Shown piece by piece: positions 3,415 through 60,995 of a stretch of DNA of 64,000 nt. The notes beneath the pieces were generated by a model that saw only the letters and a program-made list of their open reading frames with translations, was not told the DNA's origin and did not search any database. The stretch covers positions 1-64,000 of the forward strand of contig JAIXZE010000077.1 of NCBI GenBank assembly GCA_027489875.1, read 5' to 3'. Position 1 is the stretch's first letter; every line of letters begins with the position of its first letter. The DNA is from Verrucomicrobiales bacterium (GTDB taxonomy: Bacteria; Verrucomicrobiota; Verrucomicrobiia; Limisphaerales; UBA9464). The translations under genes and the position numbers were made by a program.

Positions 3415-3548
3415 GGGCGCATCTTGACACTGCCCCGTTTGAGAACGGGAACGGGGTGGCGATGTCCTCATCGCCCTACGAAAGTTTTGGAACGGCGACG
3501 AGGATGTCGCCACCCCGTTCCATGCGAGGGCAGTGTCAAGATGCGCCC
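3415..3548. mobile_element. MITE-like palindromic element, copy 1 of 5
   Basis: This 134 bp element starts GGGCGCATCTTGACACTGCC and ends with the reverse complement of the same sequence (about 21 bp perfect). Inside are two short stem-loops, GGCGATG-TCCT-CATCGCC and GGCGACG-AGGA-TGTCGCC. It is flanked by a perfect 9-bp direct repeat, CTTCGCCGC (3406-3414 and 3549-3557), read as a target-site duplication. It carries no gene. It sits between lpxC/fabZ and the sugar isomerase, in the opposite orientation to copies 2-4. The rest of this gap holds only a GC hairpin at 3570-3591. Confidence 0.88.
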
Positions 3549-3631: not shown

Positions 3632-4684
3632 TCAGGCCTTCCAGCCGTGGTTTTCGCGGACCTGGAGCATGGCGGCGAGGATGTTGTTCCACGTGTCCTG
3701 CTTGGTCATGGTGTCGTTGGGGAACATGCAACCGTCCCAGCAGATGTGCTTGGTCTTCTTGGTGACCTTGCCGGCGTCGTCTCGGAGCCAATAGGAGGCG
3801 TCGCGGGGGACGTTCAGCTTGCCGTTGGGATCGTTGACGACGCAGTGCTTGCCGGTCTTGTCGTGGGAGCCGGAGCCTTTGACCGTGGCGTCGTTCTGGG
3901 CGACGTGGAAGTCGAACATCCACGGGCGCAGGGCGGACGTCATCTTCTTCATGGCCTTGTGGAAGGCTTCGGGTTCCCAGTGGAACTTGGGCGGCACGAT
4001 GCGGTGCTCGGGCGCGTTGTAGCCGAGGGTGTAGAGGAGGGTGTGCGCCATGTCCGCCTGGAAGCCGACGACCTTGGGCATGTCGGTTTCTTCGAGGGTC
4101 TGGAGCATGTACTTCCAGGAGTGCATGCCGGCCCAGCAGATCTCGCCTTCGGCAGCGAGGCGTTCGCCGAGGTCCTTGGCGACCTTCCCACCCTCGCGGA
4201 ACGTCTGGGCGATGATCTTGGTGTTGGCCTTGGGATTCGTCGCCCAGTCATGGACGCCGGCGGCGGAATCGATGCGGACGATGCCGTAGGGGCGGACGCC
4301 GAGTTCGCGGAGCTTGGAAGCGATGCGGCAGGCCTTGCGGACGGCCGCGACCCAGTTGGCGCGTTTGGTGGCGTCGCCCATGGCGGAACCGTCGAACCAG
4401 ACGGGGGCCACCACGGAACCCACGACGAACCCCTTGGACTGGATCTTCTCGGCGAGGGCCTTGATGCCGTCGTCGGAGATGTCGATGTCGACGTGCGGGT
4501 TGTAGAGGAAGAGGTCGACGCCATCGAACTTCTGCCCGTTGACCTCCGCCTTGGCGGTGAGGTCGAGCATGGTGTCGAGGTCGATGAACGGTTCGGCGCC
4601 GGGGCTGCCCTTGCCGACGAGGCCGGGCCACATGGCGTTGTGGAGTTTCGGGAAATTGTTGGAAGCGGCGGCAGGAGTGCTCAT
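3632..4684 (-). CDS. Sugar isomerase/epimerase-like TIM-barrel protein (xylose isomerase-like)
   Basis: The chosen start is ATG at 4684 ([11 protein letters not shown]), giving 350 residues. The frame stays open further upstream, but that part runs into the divergent gcvP region and does not look coding. The protein has the features of a xylose-isomerase-like TIM barrel: acidic and histidine residues at strand ends ([63 protein letters not shown]) suited to a divalent metal and sugar phosphate or sugar. There is no signal peptide, so it is cytoplasmic. Substrate cannot be deduced: this superfamily covers isomerases, epimerases and dehydratases, and no sugar kinase or transporter lies beside it. 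Downstream is the first MITE-like element. Confidence 0.75.
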
Positions 4685-4835
4685 GGCGTGGAGATGATGG
4701 GGCTTAGTTGCCGGAAAGCGGGCTTCACGGCAAGGACGAGTTCGTCCGGACTGCAATTGGGAGCAAAACCCGCTTGCCCGTGCGGGGTCCGGGCCTAACG
4801 TCGCCCCTTCCGCCGCCGGCGGATCCGATCTCTTC

Positions 4836-7730
4836 ATGAGCCACGTCACCGACCATTCGCGGGGCGACCATCGTCTGCCCCATCCTGACCGTTTTGTCCG
4901 TCGCCACATTGGTCCGTCCGAAGCGGACCAGCAGGCGATGCTGAAAGAGTTGGGGTTTGAAACCCTGGCTGCCCTGACCGAGGCCGCGGTGCCGGCGACG
5001 ATCCGGGTGTCGAAACCGATGGACCTGCCGCCGGCCCTGTCCGAGAGCGAAGCGCTGGCCCACCTGCGGTCGATCGCGTCGAAGAACCAGGTTTTCCGGT
5101 CGTACATTGGCGTTGGCTACTACGGAACGGTGACCCCGCCGGTGATCCAGCGGAACATCCTCGAGAATCCGGGTTGGTACACCCAGTACACGCCGTACCA
5201 GGCGGAGATCTCGCAGGGGCGGTTGGAAGGGTTGCTGAACTTCCAGACCATGGTCTGCGACCTGACGGCGATGGACATTGCCAATGCCTCGCTGCTGGAC
5301 GAGGCCACCGCGTGCGCCGAGGCGATGATGCTGTGTCACCGGGTGAAGGAAGGGGAAGGCGCTGAACGGAACACCTTCTTCGTTTCCTCGGATTGCCATC
5401 CGCAGAATGTCGATCTGGTGCGGACACGCGCCAAGGCGCTGGGGTTGGAGGTCGTGGTGGGCGACTGGCGAACGTTTGCGTTTGGGCCGCAGGTGTTCGG
5501 TGCGCTGGTGCAATACCCGGGCACCTCGGGGGTGGTGGAGGATTTCACGGCGTTCACGACGGCGGCCCATGCAGCCGGGGCGATGGTGGTGGTAGCCACG
5601 GACCTGCTGGCGCTGACGCTCCTGAAGGCTCCCGGGGAGTTCGGAGCCGATGTGGCCGTGGGCAGCGCGCAGCGGTTCGGTGTTCCGCTCGGATACGGCG
5701 GACCGCACGCCGCCTTCTTTGCGACGCGCGACGCGTTCAAGCGCCAGATGCCCGGTCGGCTGGTGGGCGTCTCCAAGGATGCCCGGGGGCGGCCGGCGCT
5801 GCGGCTTTCGCTGGGAACGCGCGAGCAACACATCCGACGCGACAAGGCGACCTCGAACATCTGCACGGCGCAGGCGCTGTTGGCGAACATGGCGATGGCT
5901 TATGCGGCCTACCATGGTCCGGACGGACTGAAAGGCATCGCCCAACGGGTGACCCGGCTCACGTCCATCCTGGCCGGCGGCCTGCGGAAGCTGGGGCACC
6001 GCATCGTGAACGGGAGCTTCTTCGACACCCTGACCGTCGAGTTGGTGGGAACGACCGCGGCAGACGTGCATCGGATCGCCGCTCAGCATCACGTTAATTT
6101 GCGGGCGCTGGACGCGAAGCATGTGGGGGTCTCGCTGGATGAAGCGACGACGGTCTCGGAGATCGAGGCGCTGCTGAAGATCTTCCACGGCGGCAATGCG
6201 GTCGCCTTCGACGTGATGTCCGTGGCCGCCGACTCCGGTCTTCCTGCGGCCATGGGACGGACCTCTCCCTACCTCCAGAATGCCGTGTTCCAGGAGCACC
6301 ACAGCGAGACCGAGATGCTGCGGTACCTGCGGCGGTTGGAGTCCAAGGATCTGTCGCTCTGCCACTCGATGATCCCGCTGGGCAGTTGCACGATGAAGCT
6401 CAACGCCTCCGCGGAGATGTTCCCGGTGAGTTGGCCGGAGTTTGCGGGCATCCATCCGTTTGCGCCGTTGTCGCAGACCCGGGGTTACCAGCAGCTGTTC
6501 GATGAGTTGGAGGCGTGGTTGTCGGAGGCGACGGGCTTTGCGGGTGTTTCCCTGCAACCGAATGCCGGGTCGCAAGGCGAGTACGCCGGGTTGTTGGTGA
6601 TCCGCGCGTATCACGAAAGCCGGGGTGAAGGCCGTCGCAGTGTGTGCCTGATTCCCACCAGCGCCCATGGGACGAATCCGGCTTCGGCCGTGATGGCCGG
6701 TTTCTCGGTGGTGCCGGTGGCCTGCGATGCGAGCGGCAACATCGACATCCCTGACCTCAAGGCAAAGGTGGCGGCGCATGCCTCGGACCTTGCGTGCCTG
6801 ATGGTGACGTATCCCTCGACCCACGGTGTGTTCGAAGCGGGGATCAAGGAGATCTGCGAAGTGGTGCACGCCGCCGGCGGCCAGGTCTACATGGACGGTG
6901 CCAACATGAACGCTCAGGTCGGATTGACCTCGCCGGGTGCCATCGGCGCGGACGTCTGCCACCTGAACCTCCACAAGACCTTCTGCATCCCTCACGGGGG
7001 CGGTGGTCCCGGAGTGGGCCCCATCGCGGTTGCGGAGCATCTGGTGCCGTTCCTTCCCGGTCATCCGGTGGTCAACCTCGGGGGTGAGGACCCGATCGGC
7101 GCCGTATCTGCCGCGCCGTGGGGATCCGCCAGCATCTGTACGATTCCGTGGATGTACATCGCGATGATGGGTCCGGAGGGGCTCAAGCAGGCGACCGAGG
7201 TCGCCATCCTGAACGCCAATTACATCGCCCGCCGTCTGGAGCCGCACTTCGCGACGCTTTACCGCGGCGAGAATGGGTTGGTGGCGCATGAGTGCATCCT
7301 GGACCTGCGCCCGTTCAAGACCGTCACGGCAGAAGACGTGGCCAAGCGCCTCATGGATTACGGATTCCACGCACCGACGTTGAGTTGGCCCGTGGCCGGA
7401 ACGCTGATGGTGGAACCGACGGAATCGGAACCGCGCGCCGAGTTGGATCGATTCATCGAGGCGATGGCGGCGATCCGCGAAGAAATCCAGGCGGTGGAAG
7501 AGGGGCGCGTCGACGCCAAGAACAACCTCCTGAAGAACGCGCCGCACACGGCCGATGTGGTCTGCGGTGATGTGTGGGACCGGCCGTACAGCCGAGCCCA
7601 GGCGGCGTTCCCGGTGCCGGCGTTGAAGGACTTCAAGTTCTGGCCTGCTTCGGCGCGGGTGGACAACGTCTTCGGCGACCGGAACCTGGTCTGTTCGTGT
7701 ATCGGGATGGAGGCCTACGGGCGTCCCTGA
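4836..7730 (+). CDS. gcvP: Glycine dehydrogenase (decarboxylating), P-protein of the glycine cleavage system
   Basis: At 964 residues this is the single-chain P-protein, with the N-terminal (catalytically inactive) and C-terminal PLP halves fused. It decarboxylates glycine and passes the aminomethyl group to the lipoyl arm of H-protein. Typical segments are [14 protein letters not shown] near the start, [30 protein letters not shown], and in the second half [18 protein letters not shown], where Lys714 should form the PLP Schiff base. No gcvT, gcvH or lpd gene is in the window, so this gene stands apart from the rest of the system. A clear intrinsic terminator follows within 55 bp, which suggests a monocistronic unit. 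A 1035-codon open frame lies antisense to it but is a codon-bias shadow. Confidence 0.97.
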
Positions 7731-18812: not shown

Positions 18813-18948
18813 GGGCGCATCTTGACACTGCCCCCGCATGGAACGGGGTGGCGACGTCCTCGTCGCCGTTCCGAAGCCTTTCCCAAGGCGATGAGGACAT
18901 CGCCGCCCCGTTCGGAGTCTCAAACGGGGGCAGAGTCAAGATGCGCCC
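18813..18948. mobile_element. MITE-like palindromic element, copy 2 of 5
   Basis: 136 bp with terminal repeats GGGCGCATCTTGACACTGCC and its complement, with one mismatch at the right end (CAGAGTCAAG). Internal hairpins GGCGACG-TCCT-CGTCGCC and GGCGATG-AGGA-CATCGCC are both perfect. It is flanked by a perfect 9-bp duplication GGTGGGGAC (18804-18812 and 18949-18957). It occupies the divergent promoter gap between the S8 protease and the oligopeptidase gene, so it could influence either promoter. The remainder of this 295 bp gap has no other visible feature. Confidence 0.88.
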
Positions 18949-19018: not shown

Positions 19019-21241
19019 ATGAACACCCCAATGCCAGCCCGAGCGAGCCACGCAACCGCCCGTATGGAACCCGCGTCCAGCCTCTCGTGGGTTGGCTCGG
19101 GAGTGGGACGGCGCACGGCCTTTCTCGTCTTGGGAGCCCTGTTGGTGTTCCATACGGCGATGTCGAAAGAGTCAGCCCCAGTTGCCGCTCCGCCCGCCCC
19201 GCCAGTGGAACCCCCGGTGGCGGCCCGGAAGGATCACCCCATGACGTGGCACGGGGAGACCGTGAACGATCCGTACTTCTGGCTGCGCGAGAAGACGAAT
19301 CCCGACGTGATCCGGTATCTGGAGGCGGAGAATGCCTACACCGAATCGCGGACAACGCAGGAGAAGGCATTCGGCGAGAAGCTTTATGCGGAGATTCTTG
19401 GCCGGATCCAGCAGACCGACCTGAGCGTGCCGGTGCGGCGTGGGGCCTTTGAGTACTTCTCGAGGACTGTCGAAGGGCGCCAGTATCCGATCCACATGCG
19501 TCGACCGGTCGGTCGGGGGAAGGCCGAGTCAGCTGACCAGGTACTTCTGGACCTCAATCAACTGGCGGAGGGGCGACCCTTTCTTGGTCTGGGCGGGCTT
19601 GAGGTCAGTGACGATGGAAATCAACTGCTCTACAGCACTGACGTGACCGGATTCCGGCAGTACACGCTTTATCGGAAGGACCTCGTGACGGGTCAGACCG
19701 GGGCAGCCCTTGCGGAGCGTGTGCGGGGTTTTGAATGGGCTGCGGACGGACGGACGGTCTTCTACGTGACCGAGGATGAGGTGACCAAGCGGAGTGACAA
19801 ACTCTGGCGCCGGGATCTTCAAGGAGGGAAACCGGAGTTGGTGGTCGAGGAGAAGGACGAGCTCTTCAGTCTCGGAGTGAGCCGGACCAAGGACCGCAAG
19901 TTCCTCGTGTGTGGGAGTGGCAGCACCGACACCTGGGAGCAGCGGATCCTTTCCTCTGCTGAACCGCAGGGGACGTTCCGGGTCGTGATCCCGCGCGAAA
20001 AGGGGCACAAGTACGACGTCGAACACCGGGACGGCTTGCTCTATCTGCGGACCAATCGGGGGGCGAAAAACTTCCGGTTGGTGACGGCTCCCGTCGGGTC
20101 GCCGACGCAGTGGACCGAAGTGTTGGCGCATCGTTCGGATGTCCTTCTGGAAGGCCTGGAGGTTTTCGAGCGGCACCTGGTTGTCCAGGAACAGAGGGAG
20201 GCGCTGACCCGGTTGCGCATCCAGGACCTGCGCTCAGGGGATTGGCGCGAGGTCACCTTTCCTGAGCCCGTGTACTGGGCTTCGGCGTCCGGCACACCGG
20301 AGTATGGGGCCACGCATGTCCGGTTGAACTACCAGTCGATGGTCACACCCCAGAGCGTCTACGACTGCGACCTGGGTTCGGGTGAATTGACGCTGTTGAA
20401 GCGGACGGCCGTGCTCGGGACGTACGATCCTTCACGGTACGTGACCGAGCGACGTTGGGCGGTCGCCCGGGATGGCGTGCGGGTACCTCTGTCGGTGATG
20501 TACCTGAAGGGCACTCCCATGAACGGAACGGCCCCCTGCCACCTTTACGGCTATGGGTCCTATGGTCTGGGCATGGAGGCGTCTTTTTCCATTCCCCGCC
20601 TGTCCTTGGTGGATCGGGGAATGGTTTCGGTGATCGCCCATATCCGGGGTGGAAACGAGATGGGGGAGGGGTGGCACGATGATGGCATGCTGATGCGGAA
20701 GAAGAACACCTTCCACGATTTCATCGACAGTGCGGAATGGTTGGTGGCCCAACGGATCGTGGCCCGGGACCGCATCGTGATCGAGGGCGGTAGCGCCGGT
20801 GGATTGTTGATGGGCGCGGTCGTGAACCTTCGGCCGGATCTGTTCCGCGCCGTGCATTCCGCGGTGCCCTTCGTGGACGTGATGAACACGATGATGGACG
20901 CGAGCCTGCCCCTGACCGTTGGCGAGTATCTGGAATGGGGGAATCCCAATGAAAAGGCCGCCTTCGACTACATGCGGTCCTACAGTCCGTATGACAACCT
21001 TCGCCGTGCGGCCTATCCGGCCATGCTCGTGACCACGAGCCTGAATGACAGTCAGGTGATGTATTGGGAACCCGCCAAGTACGTGGCCAAACTGCGTACC
21101 CTCAAGACGGATTCAAACCCGCTGCTGCTGAAGTGCAACATGGGGGCTGGCCACGGTGGTGCGAGCGGACGCTACGATCGTTTGAAGGAGGTGGCCTTTG
21201 AATACGCATGGTTGATGCGCCAGGTCGGGATCGAGAAGTAA
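19019..21241 (+). CDS. Oligopeptidase B-like prolyl oligopeptidase family protein (S9A), exported
   Basis: ATG 19019 has AAGGA just upstream and gives 740 residues. An N-terminal hydrophobic segment (RRTAFLVLGALLVFHTAM) suggests export or membrane anchoring, unlike the cytosolic E. coli enzyme. The N-terminal half is the S9 beta-propeller with the family signature NDPYFWLREKTNPDVIRYLE. The C-terminal alpha/beta hydrolase has Ser592 in EGGSAGG, Asp677 in SLNDSQVMYWEP and His712 in GAGHGGASGRYD, a complete triad. S9A enzymes cut short peptides, oligopeptidase B after Arg or Lys. Together with the S1C and S8 proteases on the other side of the promoter gap, this gene could finish digestion of protein outside the inner membrane, which is inference from context. 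Confidence 0.92.
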   Translation: MNTPMPARASHATARMEPASSLSWVGSGVGRRTAFLVLGALLVFHTAMSKESAPVAAPPAPPVEPPVAARKDHPMTWHGETVNDPYFWLREKTNPDVIRYLEAENAYTESRTTQEKAFGEKLYAEILGRIQQTDLSVPVRRGAFEYFSRTVEGRQYPIHMRRPVGRGKAESADQVLLDLNQLAEGRPFLGLGGLEVSDDGNQLLYSTDVTGFRQYTLYRKDLVTGQTGAALAERVRGFEWAADGRTVFYVTEDEVTKRSDKLWRRDLQGGKPELVVEEKDELFSLGVSRTKDRKFLVCGSGSTDTWEQRILSSAEPQGTFRVVIPREKGHKYDVEHRDGLLYLRTNRGAKNFRLVTAPVGSPTQWTEVLAHRSDVLLEGLEVFERHLVVQEQREALTRLRIQDLRSGDWREVTFPEPVYWASASGTPEYGATHVRLNYQSMVTPQSVYDCDLGSGELTLLKRTAVLGTYDPSRYVTERRWAVARDGVRVPLSVMYLKGTPMNGTAPCHLYGYGSYGLGMEASFSIPRLSLVDRGMVSVIAHIRGGNEMGEGWHDDGMLMRKKNTFHDFIDSAEWLVAQRIVARDRIVIEGGSAGGLLMGAVVNLRPDLFRAVHSAVPFVDVMNTMMDASLPLTVGEYLEWGNPNEKAAFDYMRSYSPYDNLRRAAYPAMLVTTSLNDSQVMYWEPAKYVAKLRTLKTDSNPLLLKCNMGAGHGGASGRYDRLKEVAFEYAWLMRQVGIEK

Positions 21242-23189: not shown

Positions 23190-23324
23190 GGGCGCATCTT
23201 GACACTGCCCCCCCACGCAACGGGGAGGCGACGTCCTCGTCGCCATTCCAAAGCCATTCCCAAGGCGATGAGGACATCGCCACCCCGAATCCTTCCCAAA
23301 AGGGGGCAGTGTCAAGATGCGCCC
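23190..23324. mobile_element. MITE-like palindromic element, copy 3 of 5
   Basis: This 135 bp copy is the cleanest. Terminal inverted repeats match perfectly for at least 23 bp (GGGCGCATCTTGACACTGCC then CCC at each end). Internal hairpins GGCGACG-TCCT-CGTCGCC and GGCGATG-AGGA-CATCGCC are intact. The 9-bp flanking duplication is perfect: GTGGCATTG at 23181-23189 and 23325-23333. It lies in the divergent gap between the antiporter and the CAP-domain gene. The rest of this gap (23029-23180 and 23334-23390) shows nothing distinctive. Confidence 0.9.
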
Positions 23325-55743: not shown

Positions 55744-56625
55744 ATGAAATGCTGGGTGACTGGAGCGGCAGGCCTGATCGGAGGGACCTTGATGCGGAGT
55801 CCAGGCATCCCTCAGGGATGGGAAGCTGTTGCCTTGCATCGCGGCATCCTTGAACTCACGGACTTTGCGGCCGTTGAACGACGGTTTGAAGCTGATGGGC
55901 CGTTGGCCCTCATCCACTGCGCGGCCATGAGCCGAAGTCCGCAATGTCAGCAAGAACCTGCGAAGGCACGTCAATGGAACGTCGACGTGACCCGCCACCT
56001 GGCCGGGTTGTTTGCTGGAAGACGGATGGTCTTCCTGTCCACTGATCTTGTGTTTGATGGCCAGCGCGGCGGTTATGGAGAGGATTGCGCGGTGGCTCCC
56101 CTGAGCATTTATGCAGAGACGAAGGTGGAGGCCGAGCAATGGGTTCTGCGGGACCCGCGACATCTCGTCGTGCGTACCTCCCTGAACCATGGTCGGTCCA
56201 CGACGGCGGATCGTGGATTCAACGAGGAGATGGTTCGGGCGTGGCGTGCGGGAAGGACCCTCCAGCTGTTCCGGGACGAGTATCGGAGTCCGATTCCTGC
56301 CGAGCATACAGCGCGAGCGCTCTGGGAGTTGTTGGGCAAGGAATGCGGGGGGATCCTTCACCTGGCAGGGGCACAGCGGCTTTCACGATGGGAGATCGGA
56401 TGTGCGTTGGCTGCGATACTGGAGGGTGAAGGCCTTTCCTGTCCGATCGAGCCCGGAACCTTGCGGGACTACAATGGGGCACCCCGGCCGCCGGACACCT
56501 CCCTGGATAGTTCCCGGGCTCAGGCCCTGTTGGGCTTCCGGATTCCGGGGTATGCGGAATGGCTGGCGGCTGGATCTCCGCCCGCTTTCCCGGAATCGGG
56601 TTCCAGATGCGGAGGGCAGCGATGA
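55744..56625 (+). CDS. NAD(P)-dependent sugar-nucleotide reductase/epimerase (RmlD-like extended SDR)
   Basis: ATG 55744 has GGGAGG at a good distance and is preferred over GTG 55735; it gives 293 residues. The nucleotide-binding motif is WVTGAAGLIGGTL, the substrate region FLSTDLVFDG matches RmlD (STDYVFDG in typical members), and the catalytic pair is in IYAETKVEAE (YxxxK). RmlD makes dTDP-rhamnose; close relatives act on other nucleotide sugars or as the regulatory MAT subunit. No rmlABC genes are nearby, so the substrate is open. The stop overlaps gluQ by 4 bp (ATGA). Confidence 0.85.
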   Translation: MKCWVTGAAGLIGGTLMRSPGIPQGWEAVALHRGILELTDFAAVERRFEADGPLALIHCAAMSRSPQCQQEPAKARQWNVDVTRHLAGLFAGRRMVFLSTDLVFDGQRGGYGEDCAVAPLSIYAETKVEAEQWVLRDPRHLVVRTSLNHGRSTTADRGFNEEMVRAWRAGRTLQLFRDEYRSPIPAEHTARALWELLGKECGGILHLAGAQRLSRWEIGCALAAILEGEGLSCPIEPGTLRDYNGAPRPPDTSLDSSRAQALLGFRIPGYAEWLAAGSPPAFPESGSRCGGQR

Positions 56626-57473
56626 GCACGGAAGTTCAGGGCGGCTATCGGGGTAGGATTGCGCCATCGCCCACGGGATACCTGCACCTTGGGCACGGGC
56701 GGACCTTCTGGATCGCGTGGGAGAGGGCGCGGAAGGCCGGGGGTACGGTGGTTCTGCGGAACGACGATCTGGATCGGGATCGCGTGAGAACCGAGTTCAT
56801 CACGGGATTCATCGAGGACCTGAAGTGGTTGGGTGTGGAATGGGACGAAGGCCCGGACCGCGGGGGGCCGCATCGGCCGTATAGCCAATCCGAGCGGATG
56901 TCCCACTACGCGGCGGCTTTGTCCCGCTTGCGGGATCTGGGGTGGGTTTATCCATGCACCTGTTCGCGGCGGGAGATCCTCGCGTCGCTTTCGGCGCCTC
57001 ACGCGGGTGACGAGGAGCCCGTTTACGCCGGGCACTGTCGGGGTCGGCGAATGGAGGACCTGAAGTGGGGCACGCGGTTCAGTTGGAGGTTTCGCGTTCC
57101 CGATGGAGAGGCCATCGAGTTTGAGGACGGGTTCGCCGGCAGGGTGCGGTACGAAGCCGGGCGGGATTTTGGCGACTTCGTGGTGTGGCGGCACGATGGA
57201 GTTCCGGCGTACCAATTGGCGTGCGTGGTCGACGATGCGCTGATGCGGATCACCGAAGTGGTGCGTGGGGAGGACCTGCTATTGAGCACGGCGCGCCAGA
57301 TCCTCCTGTACCGGGCGCTCGGTTGGTCAGTACCGCGGTTCTGTCACTGTCCTTTGGTTCGAGACGCTCAGGGGCAACGATTGGCGAAGCGGCACGCCTC
57401 GCTGAGCCTGCGAGAGTTGCGGGCGGCGGGCAAACAGCCGGAAGAGGTCAGGGCCCTCTGGGGCGCATCTTGA
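56622..57473 (+). CDS. gluQ: Glutamyl-Q tRNA(Asp) synthetase, 3' end rewritten by a MITE-like element
   Basis: GluQ-RS is a shortened glutamyl-tRNA synthetase that attaches glutamate to queuosine in tRNA(Asp). ATG 56622, with GGAGGG just upstream, gives 283 residues. HIGH-type motif: PSPTGYLHLGHGRTFW; zinc-binding-type cysteines in PCTCSRRE; LVRDAQGQRLAKRH stands for KMSKS. The anticodon-binding domain is absent, as expected. The last three codons (GAS) and the stop lie inside the element that begins at 57461. Joining the sequences on either side at the 9-bp duplication would give ALWVQAH and a stop, so the insertion changed only the last few residues. The enzyme is probably still active. Confidence 0.92.
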   Translation: MSTEVQGGYRGRIAPSPTGYLHLGHGRTFWIAWERARKAGGTVVLRNDDLDRDRVRTEFITGFIEDLKWLGVEWDEGPDRGGPHRPYSQSERMSHYAAALSRLRDLGWVYPCTCSRREILASLSAPHAGDEEPVYAGHCRGRRMEDLKWGTRFSWRFRVPDGEAIEFEDGFAGRVRYEAGRDFGDFVVWRHDGVPAYQLACVVDDALMRITEVVRGEDLLLSTARQILLYRALGWSVPRFCHCPLVRDAQGQRLAKRHASLSLRELRAAGKQPEEVRALWGAS

Positions 57474-57595
57474 CACTGCCCCCGCATGCGCCGGGGAGCG
57501 ACGTCCTCGTCGTCGTTCCGAAGCCATTCCCAATGGCGATGAGGACATCGCCGCCCCGAATCCTTTCCAAAAGGGCGCAGTGGCAAGATGCGCCC
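57461..57595. mobile_element. MITE-like palindromic element, copy 4 of 5, at the 3' end of gluQ
   Basis: This 135 bp copy has left end GGGCGCATCTTGACACTGCC; the right end has two changes (GCGCAGTGGCAAGATGCGCCC). The internal hairpin GGCGATG-AGGA-CATCGCC is intact, while the other is slightly decayed (AGCGACG-TCCT-CGTCGTC). Flanking repeats GGCCCTCTG (57452-57460) and GACCCTCTG (57596-57604) agree at 8 of 9 bases. The left end overlaps the gluQ frame and provides its TGA. Confidence 0.85.
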
Positions 57596-57640
57596 GACCC
57601 TCTGGGTGCAAGCACACTGAGCAACTCCGTGGCGATGGAA

Positions 57641-58768
57641 TCAGCGTCGGACGAACGGGCTGGCGAGAACCGTTTCTGTCGAGGTCGGAATGAATCCGAG
57701 ACGCAAGGGTTGGTTGGGGAGCGGGAGCGGGATTGGGGAACCCTGATTGACCCTGAGGGCCCATCCGTTCTGGGCGCGTTCGAGGGTCAGTCGGTTCCAG
57801 CCTTCCTTCACGCCTGTGGCGATGGAGGGGAGGGGATGGATCGTGGAGTCCGGGGTCTGGAAGAGGATCGGCGGGCGGTTATCGGTGGGCTTTCCCGAGG
57901 GTCTCCAGTCGACAAAGAGTTCGGTCGTGGCGGCCGGTGCCGTGGACCAGAGGATGGCGTTGGTCGGTGCGCTGGCGCTGCATCGGAGGTTCCAGTCGGA
58001 AGGTTTCCAGACCTCCATCGCGGCCGGTGAACCCGTCCAGCCACGGAGGCTGCGTCCGTCGTAAAGACTTTCCCAGGGAACGGCGGCTGGGGCTGACATT
58101 TCAGCGGCGGGATTGCTGGAGGGGAGTTCCTGGATCCGGAGGTTCCGCCAATCGACGATGCCGCCTTCGGATTCGAGGGCGATGTAGCCCTTGCGCCAGG
58201 AGCAGTCCGTGCCGCCGGAGACTTCAGCACCATTCACGGAAAGGCGGATGACGCCGTTGGTCGCCACGATGCGGTAGTGATTCCATTCGTTGGTGCCCTT
58301 GCTGCGGAACTCCTTTGGAAAGGAGCGGTCGCCCTTGCTCGGGCTGAAGGGTTTCATCGTCGAGCCGTGGATCGGGAAGATGTCTCCGTGCGTGGTGAAC
58401 CAGTCGGATTTCCCGTAGCCGTGGTCGAGGACCTGGACCTCGATGGCACGCAGGAAGGGTTGACCGGGAGCCGGGAGCGATCCTGACCAGATGAAGACCC
58501 CGGCGTTGCCGCCTGACTTCATGTGTCGCCACTCCAGTTCGAGGATGAAGTTTTCGAACTGGCGTTCGGTGCGGAGTGCGCCGGTCGGGATGCCATCGCA
58601 ATGGATCATCCCATCGCGCACCGTGAACGTTTCGGGTGCGCAGTTCACGTTGACCCAGCCCGAGAGGTCACGCCCGTTGAAGAGGGGGGTGAAGGTGTTC
58701 GAAGGTTCTGCTGCGATTGAAGTCGCGGTGGTGAGGCAAAGGGTCAGCAGGAGGAGTGGGGGATTCAT
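57641..58768 (-). CDS. Secreted DUF1080 (3-keto-disaccharide hydrolase-like) protein with two domains
   Basis: The protein has 375 residues and a signal peptide (MNPPLLLLTLCLTTATSIAA). Residues about 26-215 form one DUF1080 jelly-roll: FTPLFNGRDLSGWVNVN, FILELEWRHMKSGGNAGVFI, AIEVQVLDHGYG and GYIALESEGGIVDWRNLRI. A second, less complete copy follows at about 230-375 (ESLYDGRSLRGWTGSPA). DUF1080 domains relate to concanavalin-like folds, and some hydrolyse 3-keto-glycosides; most are uncharacterised. It is the last gene of a minus-strand group with yggS and the SGNH-DUF1080 gene. Confidence 0.88.
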   Translation of the reverse strand: MNPPLLLLTLCLTTATSIAAEPSNTFTPLFNGRDLSGWVNVNCAPETFTVRDGMIHCDGIPTGALRTERQFENFILELEWRHMKSGGNAGVFIWSGSLPAPGQPFLRAIEVQVLDHGYGKSDWFTTHGDIFPIHGSTMKPFSPSKGDRSFPKEFRSKGTNEWNHYRIVATNGVIRLSVNGAEVSGGTDCSWRKGYIALESEGGIVDWRNLRIQELPSSNPAAEMSAPAAVPWESLYDGRSLRGWTGSPAAMEVWKPSDWNLRCSASAPTNAILWSTAPAATTELFVDWRPSGKPTDNRPPILFQTPDSTIHPLPSIATGVKEGWNRLTLERAQNGWALRVNQGSPIPLPLPNQPLRLGFIPTSTETVLASPFVRR

Positions 58769-60866: not shown

Positions 60867-60995
60867 GGGCGCATCGTGGCACTGCCCCCTTTTGGAAAGG
60901 ATTCGGGGTGGCGATGTCCTCATCGCCTTGGGAAGGGCTTTGGAACGGCGACGAGGACGACGCCACCCTTGCGGGGGCAGTTTCAAGATGCGCCC
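60867..60995. mobile_element. MITE-like palindromic element, copy 5 of 5 (most diverged)
   Basis: This 129 bp copy has the same orientation as copy 1. The left end GGGCGCATCGTGGCACTGCC and right-end complement GGGCGCATCTTGAAACTGCC differ from the consensus by two or three bases. One internal hairpin is intact (GGCGATG-TCCT-CATCGCC); the other is damaged. The flanks TGGGGCTGG (60858-60866) and TGTGGCTGG (60996-61004) match at 8 of 9 bases. It lies in the 290 bp gap between the SGNH gene and the large partial gene, upstream of the terminator of the latter on the other strand. Confidence 0.82.

Follow-up and report, generated by a model that had tools for sequence, protein, structure and literature searches.

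Short mobile repeats are known to reach into the 3' ends of bacterial genes. The Coxiella burnetii elements QMITE1 and QMITE2 overlap the 3' ends of functional genes, including ubiB, mutT, ruvB, recN, ogt and others, by 1 to 50 bp, and have changed the C-terminus of enhC (PMC5896051). In enterobacteria, the small mobile repeats RU-1 and RU-2 are found fused to gene 3' ends (PMC2759123). Elements of the Mutator-like superfamily, to which the ISKra4 group belongs, have 18- to 39-bp inverted repeats ending in C, and duplicate 8 to 9 bp of target (PMC3942029). The MITE described here, at the end of gluQ in an uncultured Verrucomicrobiales bacterium, resembles QMITE1 and QMITE2 in overlapping gene 3' ends and altering C-termini, and RU-1 and RU-2 in that the normal stop is replaced beyond the conserved domain.

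A MITE copy at the 3' end of gluQ

The window, the 64,000-nucleotide stretch of DNA that was analysed, lies on contig C162 of a draft genome of 6.2 Mb, which comprises 451 contigs. The features at and around the gluQ end are:

56622 to 57473, plus strand: gluQ, glutamyl-Q tRNA(Asp) synthetase (GluQRS), 283 aa (NCBIfam NF004315, Pfam PF00749)
57452 to 57460, no strand: left copy of the target duplication, GGCCCTCTG (the 9-bp duplication seen family-wide)
57461 to 57595, no strand: MITE copy, 135 bp, near-palindromic, too small for a transposase gene, recognised by family and 9-bp duplication
57461 to 57483, plus strand: left terminal inverted repeat GGGCGCATCTTGACACTGCCCCC, 23 bp, equal to the family consensus
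57471 to 57473, plus strand: TGA of the terminal repeat (element bases 11 to 13), the current gluQ stop
57573 to 57595, minus strand: right terminal inverted repeat TGGCAAGATGCGCCC, slightly diverged, the equivalent TGA absent
57596 to 57604, no strand: right copy of the target duplication, GACCCTCTG, with one mismatch to the left copy
57605 to 57620, plus strand: presumed displaced gluQ 3' end, ...G GTG CAA GCA CAC TGA (VQAH stop), from joining the flanks
57641 to 58768, minus strand: neighbour convergent to gluQ, 3-keto-disaccharide hydrolase domain protein (PF06439)

The gluQ product passes the cut-off of the GluQRS family model (NF004315; 278 bits versus 250, residues 11 to 278), and its top named matches are from Verrucomicrobiota MAGs. 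By this family assignment the gene encodes GluQRS, with glutamylation of queuosine-34 in tRNA(Asp) as its predicted function. It starts with the ATG at 56622, which overlaps the stop of an rmlD-like gene, and its frame is open up to the TGA at 57471 to 57473. The stop of the convergent neighbour is 45 bp away from the element.

The interval 57452 to 57604, put forward as the element region in a preliminary description of this DNA, corresponds exactly to one 9-bp duplication, the 135-bp element and a second 9-bp duplication. That description spoke of a duplicated 9 bp; the duplication is indeed present, but its copies, GGCCCTCTG and GACCCTCTG, are identical at eight of nine positions, which implies a change of one base or more after the insertion. 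For a single copy, the probability that at least eight of nine flanking bases match by chance is about 2e-4. Four more copies of the MITE are present in the window (3415-3548, 18813-18948, 23190-23324 and 60867-60995), the first three of them with perfect 9-bp duplications.

The MITE family and its location

The terminal 15-mer, allowing one mismatch, has 335 matches in the genome, compared with none for the reversed control. Nearly all of the 110 complete copies are 127 to 137 bp long, with the 23-bp inverted repeat conserved at both family ends, and isolated ends in the sampled stretches are mostly truncated or decayed copies. Among 109 complete copies with usable flanks, the adjoining 9 bp match perfectly in 42 and with no more than one mismatch in 64, and there is almost nothing at 5 to 7 or 11 to 13 bp. 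The family thus has the properties of a MITE, being a short, multicopy, noncoding element with terminal inverted repeats and a target duplication of fixed length.

The element sits almost wholly between genes: about three quarters of random points fall within a predicted gene, but only 1 of 80 complete copies does. Twenty frames that run from stop to stop across complete elements were considered as intragenic insertions and rejected; their upstream coding scores are negative, and the element therefore lies in 5' noncoding sequence. An apparent preference for divergent sites in the raw counts is also lost when intergenic length is weighted (p = 0.53). Some copies adjoin one another at a distance of about 10 bp (L158:1381-1515 and 1525-1658; also L192 around 19386-19625), which may reflect a later insertion next to an existing copy or else a tandem event.

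When folded as RNA, the gluQ copy forms a hairpin of -82 kcal/mol (z -8.7); an Rfam search returned one meaningless match (E 0.29). Such a near-perfect palindrome, located between two converging genes, raises the question as to whether it has been domesticated as a 3' structure that ends or protects the gluQ transcript, the stop codon being incidental. We consider this improbable, because no U-run was seen after the hairpin, convergent junctions are not enriched in copies (9 observed versus 11 expected, with intergenic length allowed for), and the great majority of copies are elsewhere between genes.

The repeat extends beyond this genome, and its first 18 bases have exact matches in 12 of 57 related genomes. 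The same terminal repeat also bounds MITEs of other lengths (181, 288, 302 and 310 bp) in genomes G002, G004, G007, G039 and G043 (loci L312, L317, L321 and L331), most of them with matching 9-bp flanks; on the evidence of this repeat, these MITEs form a group across the order. We note that the CTTGACA motif within the repeat contains TTGACA, the sigma-70 -35 hexamer (57470 to 57475 in the window). In the family consensus the hexamer also stands at the mirrored position on the right, such that TTGACA points inward at either end.

The insertion supplies the gluQ stop codon

The present end of gluQ reads AGG GCC CTC TGG GGC GCA TCT TGA (...A L W G A S stop), and the protein ends in GAS at the TGA within CTTGACA of the terminal repeat, as had been noted. 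The element contributes the third base of TGG, then GGC GCA TCT and the TGA; the Trp codon is retained because the first base of the element is also G. Removal of the element and one duplication copy joins ...CCCTCTG directly to GGTGCAAGCACACTGA, the presumed pre-insertion junction, and restores the frame that the preliminary description had reconstructed, GCC CTC TGG GTG CAA GCA CAC TGA (ALW-VQAH), with its stop at 57618 to 57620. The ancestral tail would accordingly have ended in WVQAH. The exchange had been given as four residues for two, which is a miscount, as VQAH (four residues) is replaced by GAS (three). The family membership of the element, the 9-bp duplication that abuts it exactly and the gluQ frame, which stays open into the element, together establish that the insertion, rather than native sequence, supplies the stop codon, in agreement with the central claim of that description.

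Comparison with the gluQ genes of relatives shows what the insertion has altered. In 39 relatives, the tail that follows the R(L/M)(A/S)KR motif has 22 to 42 residues (median, 27); the gluQ tail has 26 residues, and 27 in the joined version. Conservation fades near the Trp, where several relatives stop (LRSGW, LREKW, LRAGW), and beyond it the tails are dissimilar. The comparison of C-termini bears out the expected similarity in tail length but not the expected sequence: WVQAH is seen in none of the compared relatives, nor ALWVQAH, and the tails vary too much for an ancestral end to be checked against them. None of the gluQ loci fetched from public genomes has the element. With these loci free of the element and the tail lengths scattered around the same value, gluQ is not truncated, in line with the preliminary description, and the conserved GluQRS body is intact. 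Since the change is beyond the catalytic body, in a freely variable tail, the enzyme ending in GAS is very probably functional, its activity presumably retained.

Tails as long as that of gluQ occur in some relatives, such as L117 (26 residues), which could suggest that gluQ natively ends at this codon and that its likeness to the element is coincidental. We regard this as scarcely credible. A perfect 23-base terminal repeat begins inside the last codons and the duplication is flush on both sides; boundary and duplication each prove the insertion without recourse to relatives, and equal tail lengths, which some relatives have by chance, do not count against it.

Other genes run into the element

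The gluQ configuration raises the question as to whether other genes end within the element. We surveyed about 1.76 Mb of sequence stretches (about 28% of the genome) together with the flanks of further copies, calling genes with a 3-periodic Markov model that was trained iteratively; this superseded a 50-codon codon-usage score, which was too weak for gene calls. Element ends were located with a profile, giving 296 distinct ends, of which 195 have TGA at bases 11 to 13. With complete copies and a strict score only gluQ is recovered, and the other genes are added when decayed copies and weaker scores are allowed. Confident coding frames enter the element at 5 of the 296 ends. Besides gluQ, these are:

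L168, 971 to 1513: Sel1-repeat gene (weak Sel1 match), ending STAP-GAS at a complete copy
L250, 11475 to 12938: PEP-CTERM-like gene (coding score 68), ending FLR-GAS at a decayed copy
L220: DUF1501 gene (282.9 bits), ending RELTG-SAT at a decayed element end
L198 (G000:C312), 4085 to 6976, minus strand: 964-codon gene with a decayed copy inside, element at 5023 to 5142

The four gene 3' ends that enter the element (gluQ and the Sel1-repeat, DUF1501 and PEP-CTERM-like genes) all stop at the same TGA, and the suggestion that other copies at gene ends would use this stop thus holds for at least three further genes. The element copy at the Sel1-repeat gene of L168 has a duplication, CACCGCCCC/CACCACCCC, that is identical at eight of nine positions, and the gene has an ortholog 59% identical over residues 1 to 171. 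At L250 and L220, the element ends are decayed and have no recognisable duplication. The L250 product has no match in Pfam or NCBIfam, and by inspection its end resembles a PEP-CTERM signal. At L220, 13 of 18 positions agree with the repeat, with a 3-base insertion; among 11 relatives, the equivalent Gly is the last residue in nine, and two end one or two residues later, thus stopping 1 to 3 residues before the L220 end.

The copy in L198 behaves differently. It is positioned after the TPR part of the protein and before the downstream part, in a different and open phase, and an ortholog in G006 aligns to the protein over residues 32 to 621 and 657 to 948, the segment between being absent. Because this relative is without the intervening segment, the L198 copy seems now to be read in frame as a linker of about 40 residues, illustrating that another phase can turn into protein sequence.

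A plausible account of recurrent TGA use

We propose that a transposase brought a non-autonomous MITE into a tight convergent gene junction, 13 bp before the original stop codon of gluQ, with duplication of 9 bp of target. The gluQ frame enters the element in the one phase of three that meets the TGA at bases 11 to 13 of the repeat, such that the translated end changed from a presumed ...ALWVQAH to ...ALWGAS. An insertion in the TGA phase just before a natural stop would alter the C-terminus only slightly. In either of the remaining phases, frames would run on into the element because the consensus has few other stops. Purifying selection could thus act as a filter on insertion phase, with gene-end insertions persisting where the TGA closes the frame immediately and being lost where the frame runs on. 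The finding of at least three other genes ending at the same TGA suggests that landing at a gene end is tolerated in that frame. We hold this account, in which the MITE insertion now ends gluQ, with high confidence. The element, its duplication, the reading frame, the tail lengths and the recurrence are direct observations; the ancestral tail, the retained activity, the selective filter and the ISKra4-like mobilisation are deduced from them.

The simplest alternative to a filter is accident, in which insertions strike gene ends randomly and TGA use is shared only because one frame in three meets it. There are only four cases, and the chance that all four fall in the TGA phase, at one-third each, is about 0.012, or 0.045 if the internal L198 insertion is counted as a fifth; moreover, the TGA is no better conserved than the rest of the repeat. 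However, no gene 3' ends in the two other phases were found among the element ends examined, and the two best candidates for such run-ins, L240 and L262, which have matches in relatives, are shadow frames of opposite-strand genes scoring 86.8 and 82.7 and were rejected. Among 40 candidate run-in frames in all three phases, Pfam matches were found only for the reported cases. We therefore regard pure accident as unlikely, although it is the alternative that carries the most weight. The earlier proposal that the TGA of the repeat makes 3'-end insertions tolerable receives modest support from the four of four gene ends, tempered by the small count from part of the genome.

A stronger version of the selective account is that the TGA is itself an evolved 'soft landing', closing a frame that enters from either side, in one phase of three, within four codons, and kept since it would lower the cost of insertions at gene 3' ends. 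We think this very improbable. Among the first 22 repeat positions, conservation is lowest at the T of the TGA (179 of 220), and the stop function is for this reason probably a by-product of the repeat, with no sign of selection on the TGA itself.

With four unrelated genes stopping at this TGA, the gluQ case is more than an anecdote and yields a testable rule on which insertions selection permits; it is also a clean example of a mobile element reshaping the end of a housekeeping gene with the gene unbroken. For annotation of MITE-rich Verrucomicrobiota genomes, -GAS tails should not be assumed to be native.

Relationship to known elements

The MITE shares GGG-type inverted repeats and a 9-bp duplication with the ISKra4 group. 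ISKra4-family transposase loci in related genomes (L284, L287, L288, L291 and L304) have GGG-type inverted repeats and exact 9-bp duplications, and L287 starts with GGGCGCATTTC, close to the tip of the MITE. An ISKra4-like transposase may thus mobilise the MITE, which we offer as a lead only: an autonomous element with GGGCGCATCTTGACA ends was found neither in the sampled stretches of this genome nor in the loci of relatives, the ISKra4 model NF033572 has no match in this genome, and none of the fetched transposase loci of relatives has the MITE terminal repeat at both ends.

MITE overlap with gene 3' ends being known elsewhere, the gluQ case is ordinary in kind. QMITE1 and QMITE2 are unrelated to it in sequence, and enhC has gained 33 residues, whereas here the frame is closed after three codons. 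RU-1 is translated for tens of residues, in contrast to the immediate stop provided by the gluQ MITE; the closer parallel to RU-1 is the in-frame linker copy at L198. What this family adds to the known systems is the recurrence of the same stop in four genes, together with one copy that appears to have become an in-frame linker.
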